From the NCBI GenBank assembly GCA_021157525.1, contig JAGGWK010000023.1, positions 1-44,410 on the forward strand: a stretch of DNA of 44,410 bases, written 5' to 3'. This document shows positions 18,835 to 24,086 of the stretch, in pieces (the stretch's first letter is position 1; each line of letters begins with the position of its first letter). The stretch comes from Candidatus Cloacimonadota bacterium. GTDB lineage: Bacteria; Cloacimonadota; Cloacimonadia; Cloacimonadales; TCS61. The notes below the pieces were generated by a model. It worked only from the letters and a program-made list of their open reading frames with translations, did no database searches and was not told the origin of the DNA. The position numbers and the translations under genes were made by a program.

Positions 18835-19821
18835 TTATTCTTTTTCCGGGCTGGATGCATTAATCTGGTTTGATTGCTCCGGTGGTAATGTAAGCCGGAA
18901 ATGCCTGAACTGGCCGGGTGCCAGTGAGTCGGAAGCGATGGATTGGCGCAGTTGCAAAATCTGATCTTGAATCAGAAAAGCATCTCGGGAATTACCCACA
19001 GATGCAGCCTCTTCCAGCAGATACCAGCTGAGGACTTTTTCTCCCATGTTGCCATAGGTGCGTGCCAGCGCAACGATCACATCAAATCGGCTCAGGGATG
19101 GCGGAGTGTATTGGTAAAGGGGCAAGAGTAGCTCCAAAGCCTCGTCATATCGGTTTAGATGCAGATACGCAGAGGCGGAGAGAAAGGCGATTTCTGCCTG
19201 CAAAGTACTATCTGCCACAGCATCCAGCCTCCGGAGATGCCGAAGCATTGCAGAATAATCCGCCCGCATTTTATCGTTCTCAATCAATTTCAAAATCACT
19301 TCGGAAGTATCGATTTTCACCGAATCCCGCAGGAGGGTTTCATAAACATCGTTGGCTTCTGCATAGAGCTGATTTTGCTCGTAAATGCGGCCGATGGTCT
19401 GCATCAAATCGGGATCCAGATGCTGCTCTGCCTGAAGAAGCTCTGTGAGCTTTTCTATAGCCGTGGCCGGATCCAGTTGCTGTACATATTGACAGAAGCT
19501 TTGTTTTATCAAGGTCTTTATCGAATCGTTTTCGCTCTGAACAAAAATCTCAGAAAGGGTTTCTACAGCCCGTTCCCACTTCCCCATCTTGCCATATGCC
19601 AGGCCACGATAGTAAGCGATAGAATCGTTTTGCACACCCTCCAATAACGAGTCCCGCAGAGCAGTGATCACCCACTGATATTCCTGTTTATCAAAATAAT
19701 ACCGGGCGAGATCCAGTCGATATCGCAGCTGATTTTGCACTACCGAATCTGCAGGAACAAACTCCTGCGCCAGGCAGCTGCCTACCGCAATCAATGCTAA
19801 CATCAACGCAATCTGTTTCAT
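18835..19821 (-). CDS. Exported TPR-repeat protein, probable lipoprotein
   Basis: 328 residues. The N-terminal MKQIALMLALIAVGSC is a signal peptide; VGSC fits a lipobox and CLAQ could instead be a signal peptidase I site. The rest is helical repeats in tetratricopeptide style, for example LARYYFDKQEYQWVITAL, YRGLAYGKMGKWERAVETL, IGRIYEQNQLYAEANDVYETLL and ASAYLHLNRYDEALELLLPLY. It is expected on the outside of the inner membrane or at the outer membrane as a protein-interaction scaffold. The start overlaps the stop of the HgdC-like gene (ATGA), so it is the last gene of that operon. Confidence 0.75.
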   Translation of the reverse strand: MKQIALMLALIAVGSCLAQEFVPADSVVQNQLRYRLDLARYYFDKQEYQWVITALRDSLLEGVQNDSIAYYRGLAYGKMGKWERAVETLSEIFVQSENDSIKTLIKQSFCQYVQQLDPATAIEKLTELLQAEQHLDPDLMQTIGRIYEQNQLYAEANDVYETLLRDSVKIDTSEVILKLIENDKMRADYSAMLRHLRRLDAVADSTLQAEIAFLSASAYLHLNRYDEALELLLPLYQYTPPSLSRFDVIVALARTYGNMGEKVLSWYLLEEAASVGNSRDAFLIQDQILQLRQSIASDSLAPGQFRHFRLTLPPEQSNQINASSPEKE

Positions 19822-20594
19822 ACTGCATCCTGTGCAAAGAGGGCAGCTCCAAGAGCACCGGTGATAAGGGAATCCGGCGGTACCGAAATCTCGGATTGAA
19901 GCACATCACTCAATACTGCCTGCATGCCACTGTTTTTCGCCACGCCGCCGGTAAACACAATGGGTGCAGTCCAATGCAGCTGTGCAATCATGTTGCGGGT
20001 GCGCTTGGCTATAGCGCGATGGATAGAGGCAATGATGTCGGCAGGTTTGTGTTCTTTGGCGATGAGCCCGATGATTTCAGATTCGGCAAACACCACGCAG
20101 GTGCTGTTGATCTCCAGGTTCAGCTGCGATGTGGCAGCCAGGTACCCCAGAGTATCCACGGTGGTTTCCAGTATATGGGCTGCCACTTCCAAAAATCGTC
20201 CTGTGCCGGCGGCACAACGGTCATTCATCACAAAATCCTGCACATGACCTCCGGGACCTAACAAAATTGCTTTGGAATCCTGCCCGCCGATGTCGATCAC
20301 GGTACGGCAGGATGGAAACAGATGATACACGCCCCGGGCATGGCAGCTGATCTCAGAAATCACTTTTTGAGAAAAGGGCAAAATATTGCGCCCATAGCCG
20401 GTGGAATAGATCAGAGCCAGGTCATCCCGGCTCAGGCCGTTTTTGGTCAATCCATCCAGAAGAAGTTTTTCCGCCGTGTTGGCAGGATTGATTCCGGTAA
20501 CATCGTGGGATCGATAGATGACGGATGCATCCTGCACAAACACCAGTTTGGTGGTGCGAGAGCCAGAATCGATACCGCAGGTAATAGGTTTCAT
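19818..20594 (-). CDS. BadF/BadG/BcrA/BcrD-type ATPase, HgdC-like (2-hydroxyacyl-CoA dehydratase activator family)
   Basis: 258 residues of the actin-like ATPase family whose members, such as HgdC, drive electrons into 2-hydroxyacyl-CoA dehydratases by ATP hydrolysis. GIDSGSRTTKLV is the phosphate-1 loop, VIDIGGQDSKAI phosphate-2 and FTGGVAKNSGM the adenosine motif. The two cysteines that bridge a [4Fe-4S] cluster in the dimer are present in NDRCAAGTGRF and NSTCVVFAESE. No dehydratase subunits lie in the window, so it may serve another acceptor or a distant one. The ATG at 20594 overlaps the TGA of the sirtuin fragment (ATGA) and has no good ribosome site of its own. Confidence 0.88.
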   Translation of the reverse strand: MKPITCGIDSGSRTTKLVFVQDASVIYRSHDVTGINPANTAEKLLLDGLTKNGLSRDDLALIYSTGYGRNILPFSQKVISEISCHARGVYHLFPSCRTVIDIGGQDSKAILLGPGGHVQDFVMNDRCAAGTGRFLEVAAHILETTVDTLGYLAATSQLNLEINSTCVVFAESEIIGLIAKEHKPADIIASIHRAIAKRTRNMIAQLHWTAPIVFTGGVAKNSGMQAVLSDVLQSEISVPPDSLITGALGAALFAQDAV

Positions 20595-20761
20595 GAGAAG
20601 CACCACACTTTCGCTGAATTGCACCGGTAAGCTTCCGTCGTCGTCACATCCGCTACCAGGCGCTGCCCCCGGAAGGGATTTATCCCACTTTCGGCACTGA
20701 CCCCGGTGCCGGTAAGCACCACGATTCGTTTGGCGAAAGAAAGGGCGAGTTTCCTATCCAT
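20591..20761 (-). pseudogene. Truncated sirtuin (Sir2) N-terminal fragment, 56 residues
   Basis: A short frame starts at ATG 20761 with GAGGT 4 bases upstream and 12 bases after the M16 peptidase stop. It encodes IVVLTGTGVSAESGI followed by NPFRG, the NAD-binding signature of Sir2 deacylases (usually GAGISxxSGIPxFRG), then TTTEAYRCNSAKVWCFS, which lines up with the family's TPEAFxxxPxxVWxFY. It stops there, at about a quarter of normal sirtuin length, without the zinc-binding and catalytic-histidine parts, so it cannot be a working deacylase. No continuation was found in other frames. Its TGA overlaps the HgdC-like ATG. It is either a fossil kept for translational coupling or a small protein. 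Confidence 0.7.
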
Positions 20762-20773
20762 ATTTACCTCAAC

Positions 20774-23305
20774 TTATTTCAACACATGTATATACATCGC
20801 ATCCGGATTGAAGTATTCCTTCGCCAGAGCATGGATGGCGTCAAGGGATACTTTGTTCAGTCGCTCATCCCGTTTGAGATAATAATCATACCCCAGTCCC
20901 AGCACATCCAATACGCTGAGCATCTGAGCCTGAGCCAGCATGCTTTCCTCGTCCTGCAGTCGCTGACCACGGATATAATTTTTGGTTTTTTGCAGATCTT
21001 CCGCCTTGATACCGTTGACCTTGATGCTCTGGAGAATCTCCAGAATAAGAGAAACAGTGCGCCTGGCTTCACGACGATCAACAATAGCGCCGGCAACGAA
21101 GTAGCCCATCTGACGAATGGCATCAAAATCAAATTCCGTGGAGTAGGCCAGGCCTCGTTCTTCCCGCAATTCATCAAAGAGGATGGAATCGTTGTCACCC
21201 CCGATGATCTCTGAGAGCACATTGAAGGCGGTATTTTTCTGAGTTTCCATAGCACTACATCCAAAGCCACCCACATGCACTGCAGCCTGGGATGATTTTC
21301 TATCTGTTTGCTTTAAGCGCGGTCCCAATGTAGAAAGAGGTATGATGCGTTTTGCCGGCTTTTTGCAGGGAGGCTTGGCAGAAAAGAGCTTGGTGCAGAC
21401 ATCTCGAACTTGATGGAAATCGAATTCTCCCACCAGAGAAAGGGTCATGGGTGCAGGCAACAGAAAATCCCGATACCAGTGTTGCACTTTTGTGCGGGTA
21501 AGTTTGCGCAAATTCCCCTTGCGGCCAAAGCGGGAAAGCATGGGACTCTCTTTACCAAAAATCAACTGCTTCCACAGGTAACCGGCATAGTAATTGGGAT
21601 AATCCTTCACCCGATCTATGGTGCTGATGTAGCTCTGCCGAATGTTATCCAGAAAATTCTGTGGAAATTGTGGTTTGAGAAGTACATCGGCCAAAAGCTC
21701 CAAACCCAGAGGTACCGTTTCCCGAAAACACTTCATCTTGAAATTGGTGGTTTCTTTGTTTGGTGTGACGCCAAAACTGATCCCCTGCTCGAGACAATAA
21801 TGCAAAAACTGCTTGTGATTCATGGTCTCATTGCCATAGAGCAACAGCGCCGACGTAAGGGTATTTGCACCTCGTAACTGCTGCGGTTCGTCCAATTGCG
21901 ACACAAGAGCCGACAACGTGATACCAACAATTTCCTTCCCAGCCACCCGTTTCATGATGATCTTCATACCGTTTTCCAGGACAAATTCTTCATAGTCCCG
22001 CTTCGTGATATCCAGGGATGCTTCAGCGAGTTTGGGCTGGGAAAAAGCCTCCACTTCCGACTGAGGCGGTGGCGTCTTGCCGCAGTGAAAAATCCCCAGA
22101 TAATCGGTGCGCATGTAGGTATGGATGACAGCATCCAGTTGCTCTTTGGTGATAGTATCGATGCGGTCGCAATAATCCAAAAAGGAGTGATAATCGTTGA
22201 GCACTTCTTCGTTTCCCAGGCTGGATGCAAGAGACTCTACATATTCAAAGGTGTAGCGATACTGGTGAATCAGTTCTTTTTTCTGGTCGCGGATTTCTTT
22301 TTCAGACACACCAAATTTCTGGAGCAGGGCCAGTTCTTGGCGGATGATGCCGAGAATCCTGCCCAGGTCTGCCCCACGTTTGGGCATCACCATTATCATG
22401 GCACAGCCGTTCTCTATTCCGCATTGTGAGTGCACCTTGATCTCATCGATGAGATGCTCCTGATTAAAAAGCCGCTCGTAGAGACGAGAGTTTTTCCCTA
22501 TGGCAAAAACCTTGGTGACAAAGGCCAGGGTTTGGGAATCCGGGTGTTTCTCCGCCAGATCGGGAAGGACAAAAGCCAACATATCGTTGGAGATTTTTTT
22601 GGGAAAATGATGGTACACTGCGCGGCCGAGAGCATTGTCGCTGATAAATGTACGCTTGGTAAGAGGTCGCGATTGCCATGAACCAAAATGTTGGGATAGC
22701 AGCACCGTAAGCTGATCTGCTGTTACATCGCCCGTCGCCACAAAGAAGGCGTTTGCCGGAAGATAGTATTTTTTATAAAAGGTTTTCAGATCTGTCGGGG
22801 TAGCCTTTTTCAAGATATCCATATCACCGATGATCGGCTTTTTATAGAGATTTTTCTCGAAATAGCGCTGGATGAGATCCTCGATAAAGGTCTCTTCCGG
22901 ATCGTTTTGATACTGTTTAAACTCCTCGATGACCACCTTCTTTTCCCCATAAAAATCTTCTTTCCCAAAGGTGGCATGCTGGGCGATTTCCGCCAGAATC
23001 TGAACACCTTCTCCCAAAAAACGGCTGGGAAGGGTAAGATAAAAACAGGTGGAATCATACTCGGTGTAAGCGTTTATTGAGCCGCCTAAAAAGGTAACCC
23101 GCTCCATGATCGCATTATCGGGATAGCCGCGGGTAGCTTTAAACACCAAGTGCTCGGTAAAATGGGAATATCCTGCTTCGTCATCCTCTTCCCAGGCCGA
23201 GCCGATGCGGATGTAAAGCTGCAGGCACACCAATGGATTGCTGTGATCGGCTGCATGAATATAGCGAAACTGATTTTCCAGTGAATATGATTGAATGTCT
23301 ATCAA
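20774..23305 (-). CDS. M16-family zinc metallopeptidase (pitrilysin-like, two halves in one chain)
   Basis: 843 residues. The N-terminal half has the inverted zinc motif HFTEH (in GYSHFTEHLVFKATRG) with the distal glutamate in EKKVVIEEFKQY, and GSINAYTEYDSTCFY. The C-terminal half repeats the fold without the motif (FELREERGLAYS-like region: FDELREERGLAYSTEF), as usual for an inactive partner. It cleaves peptides or short proteins inside a clamshell cavity; no signal peptide is seen, so it is probably cytoplasmic. The start is TTG at 23305, one base after the folE2 stop; no better ATG is near. Member of the apbE-folE2-M16 operon. Confidence 0.92.
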   Translation of the reverse strand: MIDIQSYSLENQFRYIHAADHSNPLVCLQLYIRIGSAWEEDDEAGYSHFTEHLVFKATRGYPDNAIMERVTFLGGSINAYTEYDSTCFYLTLPSRFLGEGVQILAEIAQHATFGKEDFYGEKKVVIEEFKQYQNDPEETFIEDLIQRYFEKNLYKKPIIGDMDILKKATPTDLKTFYKKYYLPANAFFVATGDVTADQLTVLLSQHFGSWQSRPLTKRTFISDNALGRAVYHHFPKKISNDMLAFVLPDLAEKHPDSQTLAFVTKVFAIGKNSRLYERLFNQEHLIDEIKVHSQCGIENGCAMIMVMPKRGADLGRILGIIRQELALLQKFGVSEKEIRDQKKELIHQYRYTFEYVESLASSLGNEEVLNDYHSFLDYCDRIDTITKEQLDAVIHTYMRTDYLGIFHCGKTPPPQSEVEAFSQPKLAEASLDITKRDYEEFVLENGMKIIMKRVAGKEIVGITLSALVSQLDEPQQLRGANTLTSALLLYGNETMNHKQFLHYCLEQGISFGVTPNKETTNFKMKCFRETVPLGLELLADVLLKPQFPQNFLDNIRQSYISTIDRVKDYPNYYAGYLWKQLIFGKESPMLSRFGRKGNLRKLTRTKVQHWYRDFLLPAPMTLSLVGEFDFHQVRDVCTKLFSAKPPCKKPAKRIIPLSTLGPRLKQTDRKSSQAAVHVGGFGCSAMETQKNTAFNVLSEIIGGDNDSILFDELREERGLAYSTEFDFDAIRQMGYFVAGAIVDRREARRTVSLILEILQSIKVNGIKAEDLQKTKNYIRGQRLQDEESMLAQAQMLSVLDVLGLGYDYYLKRDERLNKVSLDAIHALAKEYFNPDAMYIHVLK

Positions 23306-23306
23306 G

Positions 23307-24086
23307 TTACTTCTCTCTTTCTACGCATGCATAAGCGTTGTGATTGTGTATCGATTCATGGTTTTCCGAAGCTACACTGAACCATGTGATCCGGGAATCC
23401 TCTAAAAGCAATGTTGTGACGTCGCGCACAATGTCTTCCACAAAGGCCGGATTGTCGTAAGCTTTTTCCGTTACGAATTTCTCATCTACCCGCTTCAGCA
23501 GGGAATAAACTTCGCAACTGGCAGATTGTTCTACATACTCTATCAGCTCTTCCAGCCAGATAAAATCCCGGTATTTTGCCCGCACCGTAACGGTGGAACG
23601 CTGGCTGTGAGCGCCATTATCACTAATCTCTTTGGAGCAGGGACACAGCGTAGTTACCGGTACTTCCACCCCCAAGGTCATTTCATACTCCTCTTTCAGA
23701 GATGCTTCAAAAAAACAGGTGTATGATGAAAGGGATTTGATGCCGGAAACCGGTGCTGCTTTTTGTATGAAATAGGGAAAGCGAATAGAGGTAAAGGCTA
23801 CATCTGCATCCAGGGATGTGCGCAAATCTTGCAGAAAGTTCGGTAAGTTTTCTATCAACACATCAGTGTGAAACCGATTGAGCACTTCGATAAATCTGCT
23901 CATGTGAGTACCCCGATGATGGTGAGGTAATTCCACATAAATATCCAAATCAGCGATGGTATTCTGGACGCCATTGGCCCGATCTTCCACCACTATCGGA
24001 TAACGTACATTTTTTACACCCACCTTGTCTATCGTGATGTTTCGCTGGTCTGGCAAACTCTGTATATCCACACTTTTTTTCATCAT
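23307..24086 (-). CDS. folE2: GTP cyclohydrolase FolE2 (type IB)
   Basis: 259 residues. It opens GTP to 7,8-dihydroneopterin triphosphate, the first step to folate and the queuosine precursor, and does not depend on zinc as FolE does. Family motifs are HRGTHMSRFIE, the metal-site cysteine in TTLCPCSKEIS, GAHSQRS, and the C-terminal SVASENHESIHNHNAYA. Two adjacent ATGs exist (24086 and 24083); GGAG lies 5 bases before the second, so the true start may be 24083. It overlaps the apbE stop. Confidence 0.95.
   Translation of the reverse strand: MMKKSVDIQSLPDQRNITIDKVGVKNVRYPIVVEDRANGVQNTIADLDIYVELPHHHRGTHMSRFIEVLNRFHTDVLIENLPNFLQDLRTSLDADVAFTSIRFPYFIQKAAPVSGIKSLSSYTCFFEASLKEEYEMTLGVEVPVTTLCPCSKEISDNGAHSQRSTVTVRAKYRDFIWLEELIEYVEQSASCEVYSLLKRVDEKFVTEKAYDNPAFVEDIVRDVTTLLLEDSRITWFSVASENHESIHNHNAYACVEREK

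Follow-up and report, generated by a model that had tools for sequence, protein, structure and literature searches.

A 56-codon remnant of a CobB-type sirtuin gene between an M16 peptidase gene and an HgdC-like ATPase gene in a Candidatus Cloacimonadota bacterium

A 56-codon open reading frame was examined in a 44,410-nucleotide stretch of DNA (the window), which is one of the 87 contigs of a 2.2 Mb assembly. This stub, known from one metagenome assembly, is very probably what ordinary gene decay has left of a CobB-type sirtuin gene that was once full-length. Support for decay comes from 15 family genomes with an intact sirtuin in this position, from the accelerated change of the stub and from other stages of decay in relatives. 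The features of the locus are as follows.

18835 to 19821, minus strand: TPR protein, the next gene of the conserved order (Pfam and locus comparison)
19818 to 20594, minus strand: intact BadF/BadG/HgdC-like ATPase, acyl-CoA dehydratase activase domain (PF01869; TIGR00241 at 255 bits, cut-off 125)
20591 to 20594, minus strand: ATGA, in which the ATPase start codon overlaps the stub stop codon by 4 nt (sequence)
20591 to 20761, minus strand: sirtuin stub of 56 codons, N-terminal part of a CobB-type Sir2 gene (open reading frame and homology matches)
20594 to 20597, minus strand: junction of the large deletion, where the VWxF block abuts the ATPase start and about 180 codons are missing relative to intact relatives (comparison with relatives)
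20665 to 20666, minus strand: scar of a six-codon internal deletion, with the GLW block gone (alignment)
20666 to 20719, minus strand: kept Sir2 signature, VLTGTGVSAESGINPFRG in the stub versus VLTGAGISAESGLKTFRD in intact relatives (alignment)
20766 to 20770, minus strand: GAGGT, the ribosome-binding site of the stub (sequence and pairing energy of -6.9 kcal/mol)
20774 to 23305, minus strand: intact M16 (insulinase-family) peptidase gene (Pfam PF00675/PF05193)
23307 to 24086, minus strand: FolE2 (GTP cyclohydrolase), upstream in the conserved order (Pfam and locus comparison)

The stub starts with ATG, encodes 56 residues and ends with TGA, and its pairing energy is that of a good ribosome site. 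These signals and the ATGA overlap, as given in a preliminary description of this DNA, were confirmed in the sequence. The NCBIfam CobB model matched the stub with an E-value of 1.1e-7 and a score of 31 bits, which does not reach the full-length cut-off of 320, and a Pfam search of the stub gave no match at E ≤ 1. Full-length sirtuins in relatives were also matched, with E-values down to 1.2e-7 per genome. When a profile was built from the intact sirtuins of the locus itself, the stub scored 36.7 bits, compared to 6.1 for the best of 1680 shuffled frames. The Sir2 likeness of the stub is not a chance resemblance.

The stub aligned to the first ~61 residues of the intact same-locus sirtuins. 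The match extended beyond the signature up to the VWxF block, in agreement with the preliminary description, with the qualification that six residues (the GLW region) are absent between the two; this internal deletion is in frame. Compared to the Sir2 consensus, GAG is changed to GTG, TFRD to PFRG, and GLW is deleted, with the NAD-binding motif still recognisable. The open reading frame ends at the VWxF block, and the NID segment, the catalytic histidine and the zinc-binding cysteine pairs are absent from it. In sirtuins, the part that is missing here carries the NID segment, the catalytic histidine and the zinc site, and its loss excludes deacylase activity of the stub. The stub is thus similar to the CobB/PRK00481-type Sir2 family NAD-dependent deacylases in gene position, N-terminal NAD-binding signature and VWxF block, but those proteins have about 240-270 residues, with the NID/His segment, the zinc cysteines and the remainder of the Rossmann fold, whereas the stub has 56 residues, lacks these parts and has lost invariant positions. 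The remainder of the sirtuin gene was not found elsewhere in the same genome, on any other contig.

The recurrent gene order in the family was FolE2, M16 peptidase, sirtuin (where present), HgdC/BadF-like ATPase and TPR protein, with FolE2 visible only in loci of sufficient length. Relatives retrieved by the genome contig scan included Candidatus Tenebribacter mawsonii and other Cloacimonadota MAGs. The preliminary description had proposed that a full sirtuin at this place in close relatives would indicate decay, and an intact sirtuin of 240-274 residues was indeed located directly downstream of the M16 gene in 15 family genomes. The ATPase was within 300 bp of this sirtuin in ten of the fifteen (G001, G005, G007, G008, G009, G010, G012, G018, G023 and G025) and 868-1266 bp beyond it in three (G006, G020 and G034), while G017 and G032 gave no match to the ATPase of the window. 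Overall, sirtuin and ATPase in relatives overlapped by 8 nt at one extreme and lay 1266 bp apart at the other. For 12 genomes without an intact sirtuin, the gap between the M16 and ATPase genes was 22-207 bp, and none of four relatives from the genome contig scan (ATPase identity 59-62%) had a sirtuin match at the locus.

Other stages of sirtuin loss were observed. At the same locus, G016 (L043:849-947, G016:C174) has a 43-residue frame that fuses the N-terminus VVILTGAGISAESGVRTFRD to the C-terminal tail KSGKIFPELVEIWTK without a change of frame; it scored 51 bits with the locus profile, both ends are well conserved, and the deletion is apparently recent. G061 (L054:1400-1480, G061:C35) has a sirtuin gene that is nearly full-length apart from a frameshift near residue 220, which could reflect early decay or a sequencing error. 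In G070 (L068:1727-1960, G070:C96), a 45-codon N-terminal stub ending with TAG is followed by the C-terminal tail in a different frame; this stub, with its out-of-frame internal deletion, belongs to another family and a locus that is not beside this ATPase, and it is independent of the stub in the window. The C-terminal sequence GEILPKLI in G031 and G063 is a probable C-terminal sirtuin fossil, although on the locus profile it only narrowly exceeded the best shuffle (7.1-7.2 against 6.1 bits). In other genomes the spacer is empty. A further C-terminal fossil read by eye in L036 was rejected, as the profile gave no support. Approximately five separate losses (G000, G016/G024, G015, G004, and g12 after G061) were counted by eye on the ATPase tree, which is poorly resolved. 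Sirtuin loss is recurrent in the family, and the locus provides a clear case of repeated loss of one operon gene with several stages caught in uncultured bacteria.

The remaining stretch is under relaxed constraint. Eight of the 23 columns that are invariant in 28 intact sirtuins were changed or deleted in the stub, compared to 0-2 when each intact sequence was left out in turn. On a tree with branch proportions fixed from M16 and ATPase, the stub branch fitted best when lengthened fourfold over expectation (2dlnL = 25.2). No other tip went above 5.5, a value reached in the slower direction, and intact tips in the faster direction did not exceed 4.1. The stub has 19-28 of 54 residues in common with intact sirtuins, for which the pairwise median is 37. 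A two-ratio codon model had a nearly flat likelihood for omega from 0.02 to 1, the branch dN/dS being not identifiable because synonymous sites are saturated. In neutral simulations with 8-20 residue changes, the frame stayed open in 16-68%, and an open frame is therefore no argument for function. The stub is similar to bacterial pseudogene remnants truncated by deletion in having intact same-locus orthologues, truncation, accelerated change and decay stages in relatives; it differs in its uninterrupted frame, its ribosome site and the tidy way in which it overlaps the following gene. The strong ribosome site, the lack of an internal stop, the retention of 15 of the 18 alignable invariant residues and the neat ATGA overlap run counter to decay, and some constraint may still act on the stub.

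The preliminary description had considered two readings, gene decay leaving a stub that is retained because its stop couples translation of the ATPase, and a small protein formed by the sirtuin NAD loop and acting with the ATPase; the decay in the first was borne out by the locus comparison, its coupling part is plausible at most, and the second is very unlikely. The open frame, the ribosome site, the largely kept signature and the position beside the ATPase would be expected of such a protein, but the accelerated change, the A-to-T change in the invariant GAG motif and the loss of GLW are against it, as is the absence of a confident fold (mean pLDDT of 46 in a single-sequence run without an alignment). 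A conserved short form was sought in relatives outside the genus and none was found, the other stubs differing in extent and breakpoints. It is even more improbable that the interior of the sirtuin gene was dropped during metagenome assembly. The sequence does come from a single assembly of many contigs; however, the surrounding gene order agrees with that of relatives, both neighbours are intact, no other contig carries the missing part, and the N-terminal part that remains has degenerated as well and has a second deletion, which an assembly error would not yield. Nor could a sequencing error be hiding a full-length gene, the refutation that the preliminary description had named: the ATPase starts at the stop of the stub and the sirtuin remainder is nowhere in the genome, so that no single error suffices.

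Sirtuin decay is compatible with a further reading, in which the remnant is maintained for translational coupling: ribosomes finishing this short leader frame at ATGA would pass to the ATPase start, whichever peptide they had made. This is a tentative possibility, with a real chance of being correct that nevertheless falls well short of even. The 4-nt overlap is in its favour, and so is the contrast between the strong ribosome site of the stub and the weak one of the ATPase (-3.1 kcal/mol, against a random median of -2.7). In Escherichia coli gene pairs, the last 15 nt of the upstream gene are enough for termination-reinitiation (PMC10666635), and overlapping gene pairs are coupled (PMC6728339). 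The stub and the ATPase resemble known ATGA-overlap termination-reinitiation pairs in the 4-nt overlap and the weak ribosome site of the downstream gene, but the upstream frame here is a degenerate gene. Against this reading, the ATPase is retained in relatives without a sirtuin, or with one 60-1266 bp away, which indicates that coupling is not generally needed; its ribosome site is also weak where no overlap exists (L012); and the ATPase might instead start at an in-frame GTG at 20624. RNA structure at the ATPase start was unremarkable (z = 0.98). The six-codon deletion of the window and the deletion of G016 at the same locus are both in frame, as coupling would favour, but those of G061 and G070 are out of frame, and one in three deletions keeps the frame by chance. 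Frame preservation was dropped as a test of coupling, as the events were too few. The ancestral frame of the large deletion in the window was not recoverable, since the C-terminal part is gone and the sirtuin-ATPase spacing varies.

The comparison shows that an ancestral sirtuin was truncated and that constraint on the rest was relaxed. Under the preferred reading of gene decay, the M16 peptidase and the HgdC-like ATPase of the family ancestor would have flanked a complete CobB-type sirtuin gene. Deletion would then have taken all sequence downstream of the VWxF block, and also six further codons, and the leftover stretch would have changed under relaxed constraint. Ribosomes probably still translate the stub, using its own binding site, and those that terminate at ATGA might re-initiate on the ATPase, for which the chance appears somewhat below even. 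Persistence of the stub through translational coupling to the ATPase is plausible from the arrangement of the two frames. It is conceivable, if on balance unlikely, that a dead sirtuin fragment was taken over as a leader frame setting ATPase translation by stop-start coupling (or, with a lower likelihood, as a small working peptide), a process that may also have started independently in G016. Should ATPase translation prove to depend on the stub, this would be an example of how an operon can retain a dead gene for nothing but its stop codon.

The assembly has one intact sirtuin, at C6:5120-5851 (L078), on a contig of 12875 bp. The GC content of this contig is 34-46%, compared to 45-49% on the other sampled contigs, and it is colinear with G062 and G029 at a DNA identity of 74-82%, whereas the ATPase of the window is only ~60% identical to theirs. 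Contig C6 may have been acquired as an island by transfer or may be a contaminant, and the genome may thus retain no native sirtuin. Given its GC content and similarity to G062 and G029, the C6 sirtuin is doubtful as a native backup copy.

Overlaps of 4 nt were also present at 19818-19821 (ATPase and TPR genes) and 24083-24086 (FolE2 and an ApbE-like gene), and short overlaps thus appear to be a habit of this operon. One 2-hydroxyacyl-CoA dehydratase (HGD-D) protein was detected at a contig edge (L077, G000:C46:1-930) and is a possible partner of the HgdC-like ATPase.
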